NCBI GenBank assembly: GCA_947452555.1
Contig: CANGDH010000001.1
Location: forward strand, 124,001 to 188,000
Source: Bacteroidota bacterium
GTDB taxonomy: Bacteria; Bacteroidota; Bacteroidia; Chitinophagales; Chitinophagaceae
Direction of reading: 5' to 3'
Length of the DNA stretch: 64,000 nt
Part shown: positions 781-11,363 of the stretch, piece by piece
Layout of the letters: every line of letters begins with the position of its first letter
How positions within the stretch are numbered: the stretch's first letter is position 1
Notes under the pieces: generated by a model
Seen by the model: only the letters and a program-made list of their open reading frames with translations
What the model was told of the DNA's origin: nothing
Database searches by the model: none
Program-made: the position numbers and the translations under genes

Positions 781-1911
781 ATGAGACCTATTTTATTTAT
801 TGATAGAGACGGTGTTATTTTGGAAGAGCCCAAATCTGATTTTCAAGTAGACAGCATTGAAAAAACTAGTTTTGTGCCTGGAGCTATCACTTATCTAAGT
901 AAGATTGCGGCTGAATTTGGTTTTCATAAAGTAATGGTAACGAATCAAGACGGACTAGGGACCGCAAGTTATCCTTTAGAGCAATTTGAACCTTATCAGC
1001 AACTGATGCTTCGAGTATTGGCTGGTGAGGGTTTTGTATTTGATGAAATATTCGTTGACAACACATTTGCAATGGATAATCAACCAACACGAAAGCCAGG
1101 AACTGCTATGTTGAAACATGTATTGAATAATGTTCATTATGATATACACGATTCATTCGTTATTGGAGACCGTTGGAGCGATATTGAATTAGCTAAAAAT
1201 ATTGGATGTAAGGCCATTTATTTAAAAACAGACAACCATAGTTTAACAGCAGAACAGGAACTTGTATTAAGACCTGTAATTGCTTTTGAAGCAAATAGTT
1301 GGGAAGCAATATATACTTTCTTGAAATTAGGCTTGAGAAAAGTATCCCATGTTCGAAATACGAAGGAAACTAAGATCAGTATCGAACTTAATTTAGATGG
1401 AAAAGGAGAAGCGAAAATCGAAACTGGTTTGGGCTTTTTTGATCATATGTTGGAGCAAATAGCAAGACATGGTGCCTTAGACTTAACCATTAAATGTGAC
1501 GGCGACTTGCATATTGACGAGCACCATACCATTGAAGACGTTGGGATTGCTTTAGGAGAAGCTTTTGCTTTAGGACTAATGGATAAAAGGGGTATGGAAC
1601 GATATGGGTACGCATTGCCCATGGACGAAGCAGAGGCCAAAGTGTTAATTGACTTTGGAGGTAGAAATTGGATTGTATGGGATGCCGAATTTAATAGGGA
1701 AAAAGTAGGCGAAATGCCTACTGAGATGTTTTTTCACTTTTTCAAGTCCTTTAGTGATGCCGCTAAAGCCAATTTAAACATAAGCTGTAAAGGGGAGAAT
1801 GAACATCATAAGATAGAAGCTATTTTTAAGGCTTTTGCTAAATCCATAAAAATGGCGGTTAAAAGAAACCCTAATAGTGACGCATTACCTAGCACTAAGG
1901 GCGTTTTATAG
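781..1911 (+). CDS. hisB: Bifunctional histidinol-phosphatase / imidazoleglycerol-phosphate dehydratase
   Basis: N-terminal HAD domain (FIDRDGVI) fused to IGPD (GLGFFDHMLEQIARHG, DEHHTIEDVGIALGEA). Confidence 0.97.
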   Translation: MRPILFIDRDGVILEEPKSDFQVDSIEKTSFVPGAITYLSKIAAEFGFHKVMVTNQDGLGTASYPLEQFEPYQQLMLRVLAGEGFVFDEIFVDNTFAMDNQPTRKPGTAMLKHVLNNVHYDIHDSFVIGDRWSDIELAKNIGCKAIYLKTDNHSLTAEQELVLRPVIAFEANSWEAIYTFLKLGLRKVSHVRNTKETKISIELNLDGKGEAKIETGLGFFDHMLEQIARHGALDLTIKCDGDLHIDEHHTIEDVGIALGEAFALGLMDKRGMERYGYALPMDEAEAKVLIDFGGRNWIVWDAEFNREKVGEMPTEMFFHFFKSFSDAAKANLNISCKGENEHHKIEAIFKAFAKSIKMAVKRNPNSDALPSTKGVL

Positions 1912-1944
1912 TCTAGTAATTGAAATCTCCTATTCTTAGGTTTT

Positions 1945-1976
1945 TTTGGTTAAAAATATTGAATACCTTAATTTTG
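1945..1976 (+). promoter_or_regulatory. Predicted Bacteroidota sigma-A-type promoter for trp leader: TTTG (1945-1948), 20 nt, TAATTTTG (1969-1976)
   Basis: Matches the -33 TTTG / -7 TAnnTTTG consensus with 20-nt spacing, directly before the leader ORF. Confidence 0.65.
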
Positions 1977-1983
1977 TATTCGA

Positions 1984-2040
1984 ATGAAAACAATAAACAA
2001 TTTTTGGTGGTGGCATACAAACTCCGTTGGGGTATTGTAG
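1984..2040 (+). CDS. trpL: trp operon leader peptide MKTINNFWWWHTNSVGVL (18 aa)
   Basis: ATG-to-TAG ORF with three consecutive TGG codons (2005-2013), placed between a promoter and an intrinsic terminator before trpE; below the ORF track size cutoff. Confidence 0.88.
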   Translation: MKTINNFWWWHTNSVGVL

Positions 2041-2069
2041 TGACATAGCCATATTGTCAAGATATACAT

Positions 2070-2105
2070 AAACCCCGACATGCAATGTCGGGGTTTATTT
2101 TTTTT
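2070..2105 (+). terminator. trp attenuator terminator
   Basis: Perfect 12-bp stem aaaccccgacat (2070-2081) / atgtcggggttt (2085-2096), loop gca, then T8 (2098-2105). Confidence 0.92.
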
Positions 2106-2129
2106 ACGAACTATAGAAACATAAGCAGG

Positions 2130-3542
2130 ATGCAAAAAATAAGAATTACAACGTCGGTTACTAAAATGTTAGCTGACACTTTTACACCGGTAGGAATTTA
2201 TTTAAGACTAAGAGACCAGTTTAGAGATACGATATTATTAGAGAGTACCGACTCTCATGCATCTGAAAATAGTTATTCATTTATAGGAGTAAACGCCATT
2301 GGCGGTATAGAGATTTCTTCTTTAAATGAAATTGAATTTAAATATCCTAATCAAGTTCCTCAAAAAGAAATTATTCAAAACGTACATGCTGCACCAGATA
2401 GAATATGGGCTTATATGCAACAGTATGAAATGAAGGGACAGGAGGTAAAAGAAGCTGCATTTGCGCAAGGGCTTTATGGATACACTGCTTATGATGCGAT
2501 TCCTTTTTTTGATACTATTCAATTTAAAGAAGGGGCACCTATTGTTCCATTAATGCGCTATAGATTATATCAGTATGTAATTGCGTTCAACCATTTTAAA
2601 GACGAGATTTTTATTTGTGAGAATAATGTGGAAGGAATTAATTCAGAAAACGAAGCATTAATTTCTTTAATTAAAAGTAAGGACGTTCCTCAATATCCTT
2701 TTACTATCAAAGGAACTGAAAGTTCTAATTTGACAGATGACGAATATCGAGAGGCGGTAAAAAAAGGAATACAGCATTGTATGAGAGGGGATGTATTCCA
2801 AATAGTTTTAAGTAGACGTTTTCAACAATCATTTCAAGGGGATGAGTTCAATGTATACCGTACTTTAAGAAATATTAATCCCTCCCCTTATTTATTTTAC
2901 TTTGATTACGGCGATTATAAATTAATGGGTTCCTCTCCTGAAGCACAAATTATTATCAATAATGGGAAAGCCATAGTGCATCCGATTGCAGGCACATTTA
3001 AGAGAACTGGAGATGCAGCTACAGATGCAGCTATGACACAAAAGTTATTAGATGACCCAAAGGAAAATGCAGAGCATGTAATGTTGGTGGACTTGGCTAG
3101 AAATGACTTGAGTAGAGTTTGTACAGAAGTGCGCGTAAAGCAATATCGTCAGGTACATTATTATAGTCATGTAATTCATTTAGTAAGTGAAGTGGAAGGT
3201 AAGGTAGCTGCTGGGGCTAATCCATTTCATTTAATTGCTAAAACATTTCCGGCAGGTACTTTGAGTGGTGCGCCTAAGTTTAAAGCAATGCAAATTATAG
3301 ATGCAATTGAACCCACTAAGCGTTCTTATTATGGAGGTTGTATTGGTTTCGTTGGATTCAATGGAACTTGTAATCAAGCAATAATGATTAGAACATTTTT
3401 AAGTAGAGAAAATACATTGACCTATCAGGCTGGCGCAGGAGTAGTGGCAGCAAGTGTGCCTGAAAATGAATTACAAGAAGTTAATAATAAATTGAACGCA
3501 TTAAAAGCTGCAATCGTATTGGCGGAAAGTATACATAATTAA
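2130..3542 (+). CDS. trpE: Anthranilate synthase component I
   Basis: Chorismate-binding enzyme motifs (GDVFQIVLSRRF, PIAGTFKRTG, AGTLSGAPKFKAMQIID). Start placed at ATG 2130 after AGCAGG; the track start at 2085 lies inside the terminator. Confidence 0.96.
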   Translation: MQKIRITTSVTKMLADTFTPVGIYLRLRDQFRDTILLESTDSHASENSYSFIGVNAIGGIEISSLNEIEFKYPNQVPQKEIIQNVHAAPDRIWAYMQQYEMKGQEVKEAAFAQGLYGYTAYDAIPFFDTIQFKEGAPIVPLMRYRLYQYVIAFNHFKDEIFICENNVEGINSENEALISLIKSKDVPQYPFTIKGTESSNLTDDEYREAVKKGIQHCMRGDVFQIVLSRRFQQSFQGDEFNVYRTLRNINPSPYLFYFDYGDYKLMGSSPEAQIIINNGKAIVHPIAGTFKRTGDAATDAAMTQKLLDDPKENAEHVMLVDLARNDLSRVCTEVRVKQYRQVHYYSHVIHLVSEVEGKVAAGANPFHLIAKTFPAGTLSGAPKFKAMQIIDAIEPTKRSYYGGCIGFVGFNGTCNQAIMIRTFLSRENTLTYQAGAGVVAASVPENELQEVNNKLNALKAAIVLAESIHN

Positions 3543-3623
3543 AGGTTGTAAATGTATCAACAACTATAAAATATAAGTTGGTGACGCAATAAAATAGTTA
3601 GGATAAAAATAAAAATAAGCAGG

Positions 3624-4190
3624 ATGAAAATATTAGTTTTTGACAATTACGATTCTTTTACATATAATTTGGTACAAATGATTCGTGAAATCACCAAAGG
3701 GAATGTGGATGTATTTCGTAATGACGAAATCCCATTAGAAAATGTAAAAGGGTATGATAAAATTTTATTATCGCCAGGTCCAGGCATACCGTCTGAATCA
3801 GGATTGTTACTACCCTTAATAAAAGAATTCGCTGCTACTAAATCCATTTTTGGAGTTTGCCTTGGACAACAAGCCATTGCAGAAACTTTTGGAGGAAGTT
3901 TAAGTAATTTAAGTAAAGTATATCATGGCATTGCAACGCCAGTGCATTTAACAGCACCTTCTACTTTATTTGAGGGCATGCCAAATACTTTTAGTGTAGG
4001 CAGGTATCATAGCTGGGTCGTGAATGAAAAAGATTTGCCATCAGAACTGACTATTACATCAAAAGACGATGATGGATACATTATGTCATTGGAGCATAAA
4101 ACTTATGATGTTAAAGGAGTTCAATATCATCCAGAAAGTGTGTTAACTCCAGAGGGTGCCAAAATTATAAGTAACTGGTTAAAAAAATAA
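3624..4190 (+). CDS. trpG: Anthranilate synthase component II (glutamine amidotransferase)
   Basis: GATase class I motifs SPGPGIP, GVCLGQQAIAE, GVQYHPES. Confidence 0.96.
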   Translation: MKILVFDNYDSFTYNLVQMIREITKGNVDVFRNDEIPLENVKGYDKILLSPGPGIPSESGLLLPLIKEFAATKSIFGVCLGQQAIAETFGGSLSNLSKVYHGIATPVHLTAPSTLFEGMPNTFSVGRYHSWVVNEKDLPSELTITSKDDDGYIMSLEHKTYDVKGVQYHPESVLTPEGAKIISNWLKK

Positions 4191-4194
4191 CAGC

Positions 4195-5187
4195 ATGAAA
4201 AAATTATTACAATATTTATTCGAACATAAAACCTTGACTAGTGAACAGGCCAAAGAAGTATTAGTTCAAATATCGCAAGGGGCTTATAATGAACATGAAG
4301 TCACTTCCTTTGTCACCGTGTTTTTAATGCGTAGTATAACAATTGAAGAACTAATGGGTTTTAGAGATGCATTACTTTCCTTGGCAGTGAAAGTGAATTT
4401 GGGTGTAGACAATGCCATTGATATAGTTGGTACAGGCGGAGATGGTAAAGACACATTCAATATATCAACTTTAGCTTGTTTTATTGTTGCGGGAGCAGGG
4501 CAGCCAGTTATTAAGCATGGTAATTATGGAGCATCTAGTGTTAGTGGTTCTTCGAATGTAATGGAACAACTAGGGTATACTTTTAAAAATGAAGAAGTTT
4601 TATTAGCTAGAGAAGTGAAAGAAGCGGGAATCTGTTTTTTACATGCGCCCTTATTTCATCCAGCATTAAAGTCAGTTGGTGCAATGAGAAGAAATATTGG
4701 GGTAAGGACGTTTTTTAATATGCTTGGGCCCATTGTAAATCCAGCACAACCTAAGTATCAATTGATTGGAGTGTATAATTTAGAAATGGCAAGAATTTAC
4801 AATTATGTATTACAATCCTTGAATAAGGAATTTACTTTAATTCACAGTATTGACGGATATGATGAAATCTCCTTGACCACCGACACAAAAGTGGTCACTA
4901 ATAATGGCGAATTCATAATGACGCCTTTACAGTTAGGAAAGCGTATACTAATGCAATCGGAATTGCATGGGGGTGATACCGTTGAAGCAGCAGCTACAAT
5001 TTTTAAAAATATAATTGAAGGAAAGGGAACAGACGCTCAAAATGAAGTGGTATTAGCAAATGCTGCAATGGCATTGCAAGTGACTGGTGCTTATAATAAT
5101 TATGAAGCCGCTTTAGAAGTTGCTACAAAAAGTTTAGTATCTGGTGCTGCAAATAATAGTTTGAAAAAATTAATCAGCCTACAATAA
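4195..5187 (+). CDS. trpD: Anthranilate phosphoribosyltransferase
   Basis: IVGTGGDGKDTFNIST, KHGNYGASSVSGSSNVMEQLG. Confidence 0.96.
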   Translation: MKKLLQYLFEHKTLTSEQAKEVLVQISQGAYNEHEVTSFVTVFLMRSITIEELMGFRDALLSLAVKVNLGVDNAIDIVGTGGDGKDTFNISTLACFIVAGAGQPVIKHGNYGASSVSGSSNVMEQLGYTFKNEEVLLAREVKEAGICFLHAPLFHPALKSVGAMRRNIGVRTFFNMLGPIVNPAQPKYQLIGVYNLEMARIYNYVLQSLNKEFTLIHSIDGYDEISLTTDTKVVTNNGEFIMTPLQLGKRILMQSELHGGDTVEAAATIFKNIIEGKGTDAQNEVVLANAAMALQVTGAYNNYEAALEVATKSLVSGAANNSLKKLISLQ

Positions 5188-5990
5188 TGAGTACAAATAT
5201 CTTAGCTAAAATAGTAGCGCATAAATTCGTAGAAGTAGCCGAAAGGAAAAAGCAAATTAGTATTGAGCAATTGGAGGCAATGCCTTTGTTTTCTCAAAAA
5301 GCCCATTCCTTAAAAGCCAATTTATTAGATAGCACTAAAACGGGTATTATTGCAGAATTTAAAAGGCAATCTCCTTCCAAAGGTGTTATTAACTCCACTG
5401 CAACAGTGGAGGAAGTAGCTAAAGCTTATAGTGATTATGGTGCTGCGGGAATTTCTGTTTTGACAGACAATCAATTTTTCGGAGGAAGTTTGGCAGATTT
5501 ATCAATTGCTATTCATAATCCAATTCCAGTGCTTAGAAAAGAGTTCATAATTGATGAGTTTCAGATAATAGAAGCTAAGGCATATGGGGCGTCTGTGATT
5601 TTATTAATCGCATCTTGCTTGACCCCAACCGAAATTGAATTACTAGCAGGCACTGCAAAGGAATTAGGGATGGAAGTGTTGTTAGAATTACACGATGAAT
5701 CTGAATTAGTATATATCTGTGACGAAGTCGATTTCGTAGGAATTAATAATAGAAGTTTAAAGTCATTTGAAGTAAATATTGAACATTCCTTAAAGTTGAG
5801 AAATCAATTACCAAAGGATAAATTAAGTATTGCCGAAAGTGGAATATATGATATTGAAACATTTAGATTGTTAAAGAAAGAAGGTTTTGATGGATTTTTA
5901 ATGGGAGAGTATTTTATGAAACAAGACAACCCCGCAAAAGCATTTGAAGAATTTGCATCACAAATTAAAATGGACGGACATGCAATTTAA
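5187..5990 (+). CDS. trpC: Indole-3-glycerol phosphate synthase
   Basis: IAEFKRQSPSKG, AESGIYDIE, operon context. Confidence 0.96.
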   Translation: MSTNILAKIVAHKFVEVAERKKQISIEQLEAMPLFSQKAHSLKANLLDSTKTGIIAEFKRQSPSKGVINSTATVEEVAKAYSDYGAAGISVLTDNQFFGGSLADLSIAIHNPIPVLRKEFIIDEFQIIEAKAYGASVILLIASCLTPTEIELLAGTAKELGMEVLLELHDESELVYICDEVDFVGINNRSLKSFEVNIEHSLKLRNQLPKDKLSIAESGIYDIETFRLLKKEGFDGFLMGEYFMKQDNPAKAFEEFASQIKMDGHAI

Positions 5991-6606
5991 GGTTTGTGGC
6001 ATATCGAATATGGAACAGGCGCTGGCTTTGGAAGCTATGGGAGTCAATTATATTGGATTTATATTTTATCCAGCGTCAAAGCGGTATGTATTGGCTAATT
6101 TATCCTTAAATGATTTAGCTTATTTTAAACCTGTGAATGCAAAAAAGGTGGGTGTGTTTGTAAATGAACCATTGGAACAATTATTAAGCATTGCTGAAGC
6201 AGCAGGGTTAGACATGGTGCAGTTGCATGGCGATGAAGATGCAGCCTATTGTGCTTTGGTACAAAAACAAGTAACGGTGGTTAAGGTATTTAGGATTGGT
6301 GGAGCTTTGCCCGTATTTGAAGATTTTGAAAAAGTAGCTGATTATTTCTTATTTGATACGGACAGCAAAATGTATGGAGGTACGGGCCAACATTTTAATT
6401 GGGAATTAATTAAAGGCACTAATATCAAAAAGCCCTATTTTTTAAGTGGCGGTATAGGGCCAAATGATATACAAGGTGTACAAATTATGGAACAAACCAA
6501 AGCAGGTAAAACATTAGTTGCTTTGGATTTAAATAGTCAATTCGAGTTAGAACCTGGAATAAAAAATTTAGAAAAAATAAAAACGTTTATCAATGCATTT
6601 ATTTAA
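5980..6606 (+). CDS. trpF: Phosphoribosylanthranilate isomerase
   Basis: MQFKVCGISNMEQA, VQLHGDED, LSGGIGPNDI; likely ATG 5980 (track start 5944). Confidence 0.93.
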   Translation: MQFKVCGISNMEQALALEAMGVNYIGFIFYPASKRYVLANLSLNDLAYFKPVNAKKVGVFVNEPLEQLLSIAEAAGLDMVQLHGDEDAAYCALVQKQVTVVKVFRIGGALPVFEDFEKVADYFLFDTDSKMYGGTGQHFNWELIKGTNIKKPYFLSGGIGPNDIQGVQIMEQTKAGKTLVALDLNSQFELEPGIKNLEKIKTFINAFI

Positions 6607-7804
6607 CGAGTTAACGAATTATCAAGCACCAAGTAAGGAAGGTTATTATGGTGAATTTGGAGGAGCCTATATTCCCGAAATGTTATACGGTAATGTAGAG
6701 ACTTTAAAAACACAGTATTTACAAATCATGGAAGATCCTGCTTTTAAAGAAGAAGTAGCAGCTTTGTTAAAAGACTATGTAGGAAGACCCACTCCATTAT
6801 TTTATGCAGAAAGATTGAGCAAAGAAATAGGTACAAATATTTATTTAAAAAGAGAAGACCTTTGTCATACAGGTGCACATAAAATTAATAATACTATTGG
6901 ACAAATTATTTTAGCTCAAAGATTAGGTAAGAAGAAGATTATCGCAGAAACAGGTGCAGGTCAACATGGAGTGGCTACAGCAACTGTATGTGCATTGAAG
7001 GGAATGGAATGTGTCGTTTATATGGGTGAAAAAGATATTGAGCGTCAAGCACCCAATGTTGCGAGAATGAAAATGTTAGGAGCTACTGTGGTGCCAGCAG
7101 CCAGTGGAAGCAAAACATTGAAGGATGCCACCAATGAAGCTATAAGAGCATGGATAAATGAACCAGACGAAACACATTATATCATTGGTAGTGTGGTAGG
7201 ACCACATCCTTATCCAGACATGGTGGCGCGTTTCCAAAGTGTGATAAGTGAGGAGACTAGAAAGCAATTAAAAGAAAAAACAGGATCTGAATTGCCAACG
7301 CATGTTATTGCTTGTGTGGGAGGAGGGTCTAATGCAGCGGGTGCATTTTATCATTTTTTAAATGAGCCCACTGTTGAATTAGTGGCAGTAGAAGCAGCAG
7401 GTCATGGAGTTAATTCAGGGATGAGTGCAGCGACTACACAATTGGGAACTACGGGTATTTTACATGGAAGTAAAAGTATTGTGATGCAAACCAAGGACGG
7501 TCAAGTTGTAGAGCCACATAGTATTTCTGCTGGCTTAGACTATCCAGGCATTGGACCACTACATGCATTCTTATATGAAAGCAAGCGAGGTACCTTTATG
7601 AGTGCCACCGACGAGGAAGCATTAGACTGGGCCTTTCATATCTCTGAAATTGAAGGGATTATACCTGCATTAGAAACTGCGCATGCTTTTTCTGTATTGC
7701 CGAAAATAAATTTTAAGCCAACAGACGTAGTAGTTGTATGTTTAAGTGGAAGAGGTGATAAGGATTTAGCTACTTACATGCAAGCAATGGACTTGAAAAA
7801 ATAG
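6593..7804 (+). CDS. trpB: Tryptophan synthase beta chain
   Basis: GRPTPLFYAERLS, KREDLCHTGAHKINN, ETGAGQHGVATATVCA. Confidence 0.97.
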   Translation: MHLFNELTNYQAPSKEGYYGEFGGAYIPEMLYGNVETLKTQYLQIMEDPAFKEEVAALLKDYVGRPTPLFYAERLSKEIGTNIYLKREDLCHTGAHKINNTIGQIILAQRLGKKKIIAETGAGQHGVATATVCALKGMECVVYMGEKDIERQAPNVARMKMLGATVVPAASGSKTLKDATNEAIRAWINEPDETHYIIGSVVGPHPYPDMVARFQSVISEETRKQLKEKTGSELPTHVIACVGGGSNAAGAFYHFLNEPTVELVAVEAAGHGVNSGMSAATTQLGTTGILHGSKSIVMQTKDGQVVEPHSISAGLDYPGIGPLHAFLYESKRGTFMSATDEEALDWAFHISEIEGIIPALETAHAFSVLPKINFKPTDVVVVCLSGRGDKDLATYMQAMDLKK

Positions 7805-7854
7805 TGTTCACCAAGGAGGACTTCGAAAAAAAGTCCTCTTGAAAAATAAAAAAT

Positions 7855-8625
7855 ATGTCAAGGTTATCAGAATTATTTAAACAACAATCTCAACGCGTTT
7901 TAAATGTGTATTGCACTGCAGGCTTCCCTCTTTTAAATAGTACATTAGAAGTTATGGAAAGTCTCCAACAAAATGGAGCAAATATTATTGAACTTGGAAT
8001 GCCTTATAGTGATCCGCTTGCAGACGGAGAAGTAATACAGTCAAGTGGTAATATTGCATTGGCAAATGGAATGACAATTGAAACCTTGTTTGAGCAACTA
8101 GCGCACATGCGTAAAACTATTCATATTCCAGTAGTTTTAATGGGCTATATGAATCCTATTTTACAATATGGTTTTGAGCAGTTTTGCAAAAAAGCAAAAG
8201 AGGTTGGAGTGGACGGTTTAATATTGCCTGACTTGCCTTTATATGAATTTGAACATTTATATGGAACGTCGATACAACAAAATGGACTTGACTTTGTCTT
8301 TTTAGTAACGCCAGAAACACCAGAAGAAAGATTAAGAAAATTAGATAGCTTAAGTACCGGTTTCTTATATGCGGTAAGTTCTTCTGCTACTACAGGGAAG
8401 GATAAAGACTTTTCTAAAGTGGCTATTTACTTGCAGAAATTACAAGCTATGCATTTGAAAAATCCGGTATTAGTTGGCTTTGGAATTAAAGACAAAGAAA
8501 CATTTGATGCAGTATCTGCTTATTCTAATGGAGCAATTATAGGGTCTGCCTATATTCAAGCATTGTCAAAAGGGGGGTCTATAGAATTAGTAACTTCTCA
8601 GTTTTTGAAAGGAGTATTAAATTAA
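7855..8625 (+). CDS. trpA: Tryptophan synthase alpha chain
   Basis: IIELGMPYSDPLADGEVIQ, GLILPDLP, VGFGIKDKET. Confidence 0.96.
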   Translation: MSRLSELFKQQSQRVLNVYCTAGFPLLNSTLEVMESLQQNGANIIELGMPYSDPLADGEVIQSSGNIALANGMTIETLFEQLAHMRKTIHIPVVLMGYMNPILQYGFEQFCKKAKEVGVDGLILPDLPLYEFEHLYGTSIQQNGLDFVFLVTPETPEERLRKLDSLSTGFLYAVSSSATTGKDKDFSKVAIYLQKLQAMHLKNPVLVGFGIKDKETFDAVSAYSNGAIIGSAYIQALSKGGSIELVTSQFLKGVLN

Positions 8626-8627
8626 TT

Positions 8628-9221
8628 ATGAGTACAGTTATTATACAATATAATGCAGGCAATATCCAATCCGTTTTATACGCATTGGAGAGATTAGGGG
8701 TGAATGCTACCGTGACGGATAATGTGGAAGCAATACTAGCTGCTGATAAAGTAATTTTCCCTGGAGTGGGGGAAGCTAGTACCGCTATGGCATATTTAAA
8801 AGAACGTAAATTAGATACAGTAATAAAAAATCTGCAACAACCTGTATTAGGTATTTGTTTAGGGATGCAATTAATGTGTGCCTATTCGGAAGAAAACAAT
8901 ACAAACTGTTTGGGTATTTTTGAAGAACAGGTGAAATTATTCATTCCAACAGATCAAACCATTAAAGTTCCACAAATAGGATGGAATACCATTTCAAATT
9001 TAAAGACTGACTTGTTCAAGGAAATTCCGGAAAATAGCTTTACTTATTTTGTACATGGTTATTATGCAGCCTTTGGGATTCATACAATTGCCACTACTAA
9101 TTATATACAGGATTATAGTAGTGCTTTGCATAAAAATAATTTTTATGGAGTACAGTTTCATCCAGAAAAATCGGCTAAGGTTGGAGAACAGATTATAAAA
9201 AATTTTCTTGAAATTTCTTAA
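8628..9221 (+). CDS. hisH: Imidazole glycerol phosphate synthase, glutamine amidotransferase subunit
   Basis: NAGNIQSV, GVGEASTAM, GICLGMQLM, GVQFHPEKS. Confidence 0.95.
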   Translation: MSTVIIQYNAGNIQSVLYALERLGVNATVTDNVEAILAADKVIFPGVGEASTAMAYLKERKLDTVIKNLQQPVLGICLGMQLMCAYSEENNTNCLGIFEEQVKLFIPTDQTIKVPQIGWNTISNLKTDLFKEIPENSFTYFVHGYYAAFGIHTIATTNYIQDYSSALHKNNFYGVQFHPEKSAKVGEQIIKNFLEIS

Positions 9222-9240
9222 TTAAATGAATGACCGAATT

Positions 9241-9954
9241 ATGCAAATTATTCCAGCGATAGATTTAATAGAAGGTAAATGTGTAAGATTAACAGAAGGA
9301 GATTACGCGCAGAAAAAGATCTACAACGAAGACCCCTTGGAAGTGGCCAAAAATTTTGAAGGGATTGGTTTAATACGTTTACACTTAGTAGATTTAGATG
9401 GCGCAAAAGCAGGCAAAGTGGTGAACTGGAAAGTGTTAGAGAAAATTGCAAACAAAACAAGTTTGGAAATCGATTTTGGGGGAGGCATCAAAACAGAATC
9501 CACTTTAAAAACAGTTTTAGACACAGGAGCGCGCTACGCTACCATTGGGAGTCTTGCAGTTAAGAGTAGGGAAACTTTTGAAGAGTGGATTGAACGATTC
9601 GGAGCTGAAATATTTATGTTAGGTGCAGATGTATTTGAAGAAAAAATAGCGGTGGGTGGATGGCTTGAAAAAACAAATATTGACGTATACGAATTTATGC
9701 AATCCTATATAAATAAAGGACTTACTCAAATGTTTTGTACTGATATTCAAAAAGACGGAAAATTAGAAGGGCCTTCGATTGAATTGTATAAAAAAATAAT
9801 TATAAAATTTCCAAGTCTTCAATTAATTGCTAGTGGCGGTGTGAGTAAACTACAAGACTTAGTGGAATTAAGGACGATTGGATGTTCTGCAGCAATTGTG
9901 GGAAAAGCAATTTATGAAAATAGAATTACATTAGACGAACTTTCTAAATTTTAA
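9241..9954 (+). CDS. hisA: Phosphoribosylformimino-5-aminoimidazole carboxamide ribotide isomerase
   Basis: IIPAIDLIEGKCVRLTEGDY, IDFGGGIK; start probably ATG 9241 (track start 9226). Confidence 0.94.
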   Translation: MQIIPAIDLIEGKCVRLTEGDYAQKKIYNEDPLEVAKNFEGIGLIRLHLVDLDGAKAGKVVNWKVLEKIANKTSLEIDFGGGIKTESTLKTVLDTGARYATIGSLAVKSRETFEEWIERFGAEIFMLGADVFEEKIAVGGWLEKTNIDVYEFMQSYINKGLTQMFCTDIQKDGKLEGPSIELYKKIIIKFPSLQLIASGGVSKLQDLVELRTIGCSAAIVGKAIYENRITLDELSKF

Positions 9955-9979
9955 TCCGCCTCAATTATAAACCAAAATC

Positions 9980-10738
9980 ATGTTAACCAAAAGAATCATC
10001 CCTTGTTTAGATATCAAAGACGGCCGCACGGTGAAGGGTGTAAACTTTGAACAAATAAGAGATGCTGGGGACCCCATTGAATTAGGCGCATTGTATGCAG
10101 CGCAAGGAGCAGATGAATTGGTATTTTTAGACATTACTGCAACTGTGGAGAAACGAAAAACATTGAGTGAATTAGTAAATAAAATTGCGCATCGAATCAA
10201 TATTCCTTTTACAGTAGGGGGTGGTATTAAAACAGAAGACGATGTAAGTACCTTATTGCAGAATGGAGCAGATAAAATTTCTATTAACACTGCTGCTTTT
10301 TTAGACCCCACTATTATTAGTCGATTCGCGAAAAATTTTGGAAGTCAATGTGTGGTATTGGCAATAGACGCTAAATGTGAAGCTGATAATAATTGGTATG
10401 TATATTTAAAAGGGGGGCGAGAAAAAACAGACAAATTAGTAATCGATTGGGCTAGAGAGGCGGTTGAATTAGGGGTAGGGGAAATACTTTTGACTTCAAT
10501 GAATCATGATGGAACTAAACAAGGTTTTGCATTAGACATAACGGCGCAGTTGGCAGAGATATTACCTGTTCCTATTATTGCTTCTGGCGGAGGTGGAACA
10601 ACGGCACATTTTTATGATGTTTTTACTAAGGGCAAGGCGGATGCAGCATTGGCAGCGAGTATTTTTCATTACAAAGAGATTGCCATACCTGACTTGAAAC
10701 AATACTTACACCACAAAGGAATACCTATAAGATTATAA
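9980..10738 (+). CDS. hisF: Imidazole glycerol phosphate synthase cyclase subunit
   Basis: [42 protein letters not shown]. Confidence 0.96.
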
Positions 10739-10757
10739 ACTTTACTTAATTTTAATT

Positions 10758-11363
10758 ATGAATATAGATTTTACAAAATATACAGATGGTTTAGTTCCAG
10801 CTATTATTCAGGATGCAAAAACTAAAACAGTCTTAATGTTAGGCTTTATGAATCAAGATGCCATTGACGCAACTTTGTCTCAAAAGAAAGTCACATTTTA
10901 TAGCCGTTCTAAAAAAAGATTGTGGACCAAGGGTGAAGAAAGCGGTAATTTTTTGAATTATGTTAGCATAGCGAATGATTGTGACGGAGACAGTTTATTA
11001 ATACAAGCAAATCCAGTTGGACCAGTATGTCATAAGGGAACTGCTACCTGCTGGGGGGAGGAGAATATAACAAATAGCCCCGATTTCTTAAATACGCTAG
11101 AACAAATAATTGCACAAAGAAAATCTGCAGCGCCTGATAGTTCTTATGTGGCATCTTTATTTGCCAAAGGGATTAATAAAATAGCTCAAAAAGTAGGTGA
11201 GGAAGCGGTAGAAGTGGTGATTGAGGCAAAAGACAATAACGATATGTTATTTTTAGACGAATCTGCAGATTTATTATTCCATTATTTAATATTATTGCAA
11301 GCAAAAGGTTTTACTTTTAAGGATATTATCAAAGTTTTAGAGACAAGACACAAACCTTCATAA
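10758..11363 (+). CDS. hisIE: Bifunctional phosphoribosyl-AMP cyclohydrolase / phosphoribosyl-ATP diphosphatase
   Basis: VLMLGFMNQDAI, FYSRSKKRLWTKGEESGN and C-terminal KVGEEAVEVVIEAK. Confidence 0.95.
   Translation: MNIDFTKYTDGLVPAIIQDAKTKTVLMLGFMNQDAIDATLSQKKVTFYSRSKKRLWTKGEESGNFLNYVSIANDCDGDSLLIQANPVGPVCHKGTATCWGEENITNSPDFLNTLEQIIAQRKSAAPDSSYVASLFAKGINKIAQKVGEEAVEVVIEAKDNNDMLFLDESADLLFHYLILLQAKGFTFKDIIKVLETRHKPS

Follow-up and report, generated by a model that had tools for sequence, protein, structure and literature searches.

A very probable ribosome-mediated trp attenuator before a composite trp–his operon in Chitinophagaceae, with a candidate second control codon for histidine

Transcription attenuation of the trpL type is textbook bacterial gene control. 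In the Escherichia coli trp leader, tandem Trp codons and a short peptide tail are combined with 1:2, 2:3 and 3:4 hairpins, a terminator lies before trpE, and ribosome-mediated attenuation of this sort needs a ribosome that is closely coupled to RNA polymerase. The same leader carries an Arg codon after its Trp codons, and Arg starvation also relieves termination. The enterobacterial ilv and thr leaders are multivalent, one leader peptide sensing more than one amino acid, in each case products of one branched pathway. For Bacteroidetes, trp attenuators may already have been predicted, most likely in the comparative study of Lopatovskaya et al. (2010).

A 2010 study extended the leader-peptide systems known from Proteobacteria and Actinobacteria to Firmicutes (PMC2965389). 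Leader-peptide attenuation in Bacteroidota was later suggested in papers on Bacteroides thetaiotaomicron (PMC7366714) and Flavobacterium psychrophilum (PMC9723704), the latter reporting structured 5′ regions with strong clues for such attenuation before operons for amino-acid biosynthesis, together with a structured element in front of hisG. Because flavobacterial leader-peptide attenuation had already been suggested in print, the mechanism class considered here is not new and its novelty is below what had been hoped; an earlier sequence-only reading of this DNA had called the novelty uncertain. In Sinorhizobium meliloti, the leader ORF of trpLE(G) (rnTrpL/peTrpL) is leaderless, the RNA 5′ end being the trpL ATG, and transcriptional repression is absent (PMC7298713).

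The locus studied here lies in a 64,000-nucleotide stretch of a Chitinophagaceae genome (the window), which starts shortly before hisB (781–1911), a his gene that stands alone ahead of the trp leader. Downstream of the leader, on the forward strand, follow trpE (2130–3542), then trpG, trpD, trpC, trpF, trpB and trpA (3624–8625) and, beginning 2 nt past trpA and with short gaps, hisH, hisA, hisF and hisIE (8628–11,363), giving the order trpEGDCFBA–hisHAFIE. The best match of trpE is TIGR00564 (trpE_most), below its cut-off, and the start at 2130 is conserved among relatives; the mechanical ORF call begins at 2085, inside the terminator, and had been correctly recognised as mis-started. The his pathway is divided around this region (781–11,363), with hisG, and probably hisD and hisC, clustered 5′ of the window and hisHAFIE appended to the trp operon. 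Linkage of hisF to trpE is found in about half of Chitinophagaceae genomes; in several relatives hisF lies near hisG instead.

Judged from its sequence, the region between hisB and trpE is very probably a ribosome-mediated, trpL-type transcription attenuator controlling the composite trp–his operon. Direct reading bears out the 18-codon mini-ORF reported earlier, MKTINNFWWWHTNSVGVL, at 1984–2040 of the forward strand (ATG at 1984, TAG stop at 2038–2040), together with its three tandem TGG codons (2005–2013), which form the 5′ side of segment 1 and are invariant in a 44-sequence alignment. A His codon, CAT (2014–2016), stands directly behind them and is a candidate second control codon. Between this short translatable ORF with its run of Trp codons and the first gene of the biosynthetic operon lies an intrinsic terminator (3:4, 2068–2105), with arms at 2068–2081 and 2085–2098, a GCA loop and a T tail; it had been described as a 12-bp stem with T8 at 2070–2105, and those coordinates hold, but the stem comes to 14 bp once the A–T pairs at its foot are counted. 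Segment 2, GTTGGGGT (2026–2033), falls within the final codons of the ORF and can pair with segment 3, ACCCCGAC (2072–2079), in the 5′ arm of the terminator, so that the 2:3 antiterminator and the 3:4 terminator are mutually exclusive. In a predicted 1:2 (pause, or anti-antiterminator) hairpin spanning 2005–2051, the Trp codons and CATACAAACTCC pair with sequence around and behind the stop codon. The trpL-type reading proposed earlier is thus supported: control codons, terminator and exclusive antiterminator are present, and a 1:2 hairpin taking in the Trp codons is predicted. The leader RNA folds better than 200 of 200 dinucleotide shuffles (z −4.6).

From these parts we infer a course of events that runs from transcription start through stalling to termination or readthrough, and includes a response to histidine. 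RNA polymerase would start a few nucleotides 5′ of the leader ATG, and a ribosome would initiate on an almost leaderless mRNA. When charged tRNA-Trp is scarce, the ribosome would stall on the three TGG codons and mask segment 1, leaving segment 2 to pair with segment 3; no terminator would form and trpEGDCFBA–hisHAFIE would be transcribed. When Trp is plentiful, a ribosome at the stop codon would cover segment 2, and the 3:4 hairpin would halt transcription before trpE. A stall on the adjoining His codon would probably be equivalent, in which case the switch would respond to the supply of histidine too, on behalf of the his genes it controls.

The upstream regions of trpE were gathered through a TrpE search that covered 150 same-family genomes, 80 genome contigs and 130 phylum genomes, with Chitinophagaceae called from record titles, and mini-ORFs of at most 45 codons containing WW were scored. 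Such a mini-ORF precedes trpE in 163 of 170 Chitinophagaceae regions (118/125 in the family set and 45/45 close relatives), in 22/23 other regions of the class and in 11/14 of the wider phylum sample, and most of these carry WWW. By comparison, none was present in the 20 upstream regions of genes for paralogous chorismate-using enzymes, and Markov-shuffled upstream regions contained WW mini-ORFs at a rate of 1.7% and WWW at 0.02% (1/4,340). As the pattern TGGTGGTGG alone is common, with 56 sites in the genome, the weight of evidence lies in context and conservation. The conservation of mini-ORF and TGG run, which the sequence-only reading had named as its check, therefore holds throughout Chitinophagaceae and in most other regions sampled. 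A W-rich leader was not found in L102, L106, L183, L210, L218, L225 and L226, where contig or start errors are possible, and three family regions without WW (L105, L114 and L192) still hold a mini-ORF with a single W. Single-Trp leaders followed by His (GWHIIPFQG, SWHLNSDQG, GWHTYSSLG) occur in L105, L114, L161 and L192, with GGGG and the terminator retained; wherever linkage data exist for them, the operons are his-linked. Divergent leaders, WWLSRWQ(H/R/L)VNS, with the third Trp spaced from the first two, were seen in L211–L214, before TrpE relatives that reach about 50% identity only. When the covariance model R1 was run on the window's own genome, the trpE leader scored 101.8 bits, far ahead of 11 weaker matches at 32.6–36.5 bits; weak matches at G000:C1:597551–597657 and C2:163754–163857 (both strands, 34–36 bits) are probably ordinary terminator hairpins.

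The geometry of the leader is conserved as well. Of the 96 leaders that combine WWW with a terminator, 84 place the stop codon at +33 nt and 95 begin the terminator at +57 to +71, both counted from the first Trp codon, while segment 2, as GGGG or AGGG, is located 8–10 nt 5′ of the stop in most relatives. Since GGGG falls in all three reading frames among the leaders, it is the RNA and not the peptide tail that is conserved. Segment 2 covaries with its partner among relatives: the 2:3 duplex has −14.1 kcal/mol with its own partners and −12.7 kcal/mol with swapped ones (0 of 10,000 permutations, a figure made optimistic by the kinship of the sequences), and the own duplex is also stronger than shuffles (mean z −2.2). 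One clade has GTTAGGGT/ACCCTAAC in place of GTTGGGGT/ACCCCGAC. The separation by swapped energies fails in one direction, with main-clade segment 2 pairing equally well with terminators of the WWWQSIF clade, because CCCCG is common to both groups. In the WWWQSIF clade, the ORF is four codons shorter and segment 2, TGTGTCG, lies directly behind the stop, with its partner CGACACA at the opposite end of the terminator arm; segment 2 has shifted together with the stop codon. These leaders are of the Ferruginibacter type (L091, L094, L098, L109, L118 and relatives), and the antiterminator has been rebuilt within one family. Compensatory changes are present in the terminator stem. The 1:2 hairpin is compatible with most sequences and shows almost no covariation, and in an equilibrium folding model without a ribosome the 2:3 pairing is at least as favoured as 1:2.

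Upstream of the ORF, direct reading also confirmed the reported promoter-like sequence, which fits a Bacteroidota sigma-A promoter (1945–1976, forward strand) with a TTTG −33 box (1945–1948), 20 nt of spacing and the −7 box TAATTTTG (1969–1976). Family leaders aligned on the leader ATG display A-rich DNA, TTTG and then a CATATTTGC-like −7 box, and this box ends 4–9 nt upstream of the ATG in 105 of 125 leaders, as against 0 of 20 paralogue control start codons; given this proximity, an almost leaderless leader mRNA is predicted. The −7 box of F. psychrophilum, TAnnTTTG, sits at −12 to −5 (PMC9723704), and by that spacing transcription is predicted to start at about 1981, 3 nt 5′ of the leader ATG. 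It is rare in Bacteroidota for the 5′ region to be missing or very short, with 5′ regions of less than 10 nt amounting to 3.7% in B. thetaiotaomicron (PMC7366714) and leaderless ones to 5.5% in F. psychrophilum (PMC9723704).

Two other accounts of the locus have to be set against the attenuator. The leader ORF might be untranslated and the WWW run incidental, with the hairpin acting as a constitutive terminator or under an RNA-binding protein, a T-box or a riboswitch; a terminator can indeed attenuate by itself. This is very unlikely given that the WWW run is kept over the phylum at a fixed distance from the stop codon and segment 2, that stop codon and segment 2 moved jointly in the WWWQSIF clade, and that neither an Rfam T-box or riboswitch match nor TRAP was found. 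Within the window, the Rfam scan gave no T-box, riboswitch or cis-regulator at gathering score, only a tRNA, and in a scan of the leader at a permissive threshold the Trp_leader model RF00513 reached 18.3 bits over 2002–2101, below its gathering score of 41. Searches of this draft genome (89.65% complete, 13 contigs) did not find TrpR (PF01371; E. coli control positive) or TRAP (PF02081; B. subtilis control positive), so control may lie mainly with attenuation, which is what has been stated for S. meliloti. It is equally improbable that the mini-ORF chiefly encodes a functional small protein or a trans-acting peptide, as S. meliloti peTrpL does, with attenuation secondary. WWWHTNS is strongly conserved as a peptide and a trans-acting leader peptide has already been described (PMC7298713), yet the C-terminal residues vary widely and track the RNA, with GGGG read in different frames, and the N-terminal part is variable. 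The leader peptide may have an extra role in trans beside the attenuation that we favour.

The genome holds another leader of this kind about 4 kb 5′ of the window, MTLNKHIHHHHLLSKG, which precedes hisG (L303:1222–1342, about G000:C1:119704–119824); a TAAATTTG −7 box stands 4 nt ahead of its ATG, and its terminator is AAAGGGCTTACT/AGTAAGCCCTTT. A genome scan for the pattern CAYCAYCAY, too common to be informative alone, had pointed to it, and leaders with His runs (HIHHHH-like) lie upstream of hisG in 26 of 29 relatives. The hisG attenuator supports the scheme proposed here: with a His-only leader at hisG and a WWWH leader at the trp–his operon, the his pathway is split between both.

To relate the His codon of the trp leader to gene order, linkage was defined as hisF lying no more than 20 kb downstream of trpE on its strand, and it was present in 51 of 99 family genomes tabulated, the window's own genome not counted. 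All 51 hisF-linked Chitinophagaceae leaders have His behind the Trp run, 50 of them immediately (the window's included) and L176 as WWWQH; in the hisF-linked L183 a recognisable leader was not found. The 31 unlinked operons with enough contig have 18 His, 8 Gln, 4 Leu and 1 Ser after the Trp run, and the difference is significant (51/51 against 18/31, Fisher p 5.8e-6). An independent-pairs test of His against linkage had too few informative pairs (median no contrary pair, p 0.5), and because it was underpowered the question was put to a likelihood model on the TrpE tree, in which a gain and loss of His dependent on linkage was preferred both strictly (LR 17.1, p 1.9e-4) and when L176 was counted as His (LR 23.4, p 8e-6). 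The same tree test gave no significant result for residues +2, +3 and +4 or for Trp run length (p 0.07–0.21). Outside the family, two linked genomes (L125 and L128) carry WWWH, and flavobacterial-type leaders, with WWWN/S/K/C and no His, are unlinked to hisF where this can be judged. Folding of this leader with an assumed ribosome footprint left 7.7 of 9.1 segment 2:3 pairs possible for a stall at His (+1), 4.9 one codon further and 0.5 two codons past it (+3), so that in the model the second codon is placed where a stall still permits the antiterminator.

On this evidence we lean towards a bivalent Trp/His attenuator, in which a near-leaderless WWWH leader would open the trp–his operon upon shortage of either amino acid, and in which the His codon would be kept by selection while his genes are in the operon and lost repeatedly once they are absent. 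Since 18 of 31 unlinked leaders keep His, its retention is not strictly tied to linkage, and this belongs among the points for an attenuator that reads Trp only, with the His codon maintained through pairing of its CA in the 1:2 hairpin or through shared ancestry. That account has a substantial chance of being right, if somewhat under an even one: the CA is invariant in the 44-sequence alignment, changes from His to Gln touch the third base alone, and a lone His codon would be a weak sensor next to the His runs of the hisG leaders. However, the consensus structure leaves the third base unpaired, and yet His follows directly in all linked leaders but one (WWWQH); the association with linkage holds on the tree and is absent for +2, +3, +4 and run length; and His persists in altered tails such as WWWHGVSFLNAV, WWHVSRAYAV and GWHIIPFQG.

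What the present analysis adds to the sequence-only reading is a likely role for the His codon and a predicted, almost leaderless leader mRNA. No description of a Trp/His bivalency tied to operon fusion, or of a near-leaderless design across the phylum, was found in the open-access literature, a search by which absence is unprovable. If the His codon is functional, the leader gained a fused sensor along with the operon fusion, a clear case in which regulatory logic has followed the order of the genes, and leaders with natural H/Q variation are ready controls. The presence of a trp attenuator in most sampled Bacteroidota, non-reliant on Shine–Dalgarno initiation, also implies coupling of ribosome and RNA polymerase there. 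In practical terms, the element serves annotation both as a covariance model and by correcting trpE genes whose starts were called wrongly.

Compared with described systems, the locus shares with E. coli trpL the tandem of Trp codons, the alternative hairpins and the terminator before trpE, and the Arg response of that leader sets a precedent for a switch that senses the codon after the Trp codons, here His. It differs in having three Trp codons and not two, and in a segment 2 contained in the ORF shortly ahead of the stop. Its 5′ leader is predicted to measure about 3 nt and to lack a Shine–Dalgarno sequence, its trp genes are joined to his genes, and a His follows its Trp run; TrpR, moreover, was not found. 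S. meliloti trpLE(G) is similar in combining attenuation with a leaderless leader ORF, the near-leaderless start being a prediction in our case, but it belongs to another phylum with another promoter type and has a trpE(G) fusion, split trp operons and no linked his genes described. The F. psychrophilum elements are of the same class, the main text of that paper being general and without trp detail, and flavobacterial-type leaders lack the His. Finally, in contrast to the ilv and thr leaders, Trp and His come here from separate pathways that are joined by gene order only.
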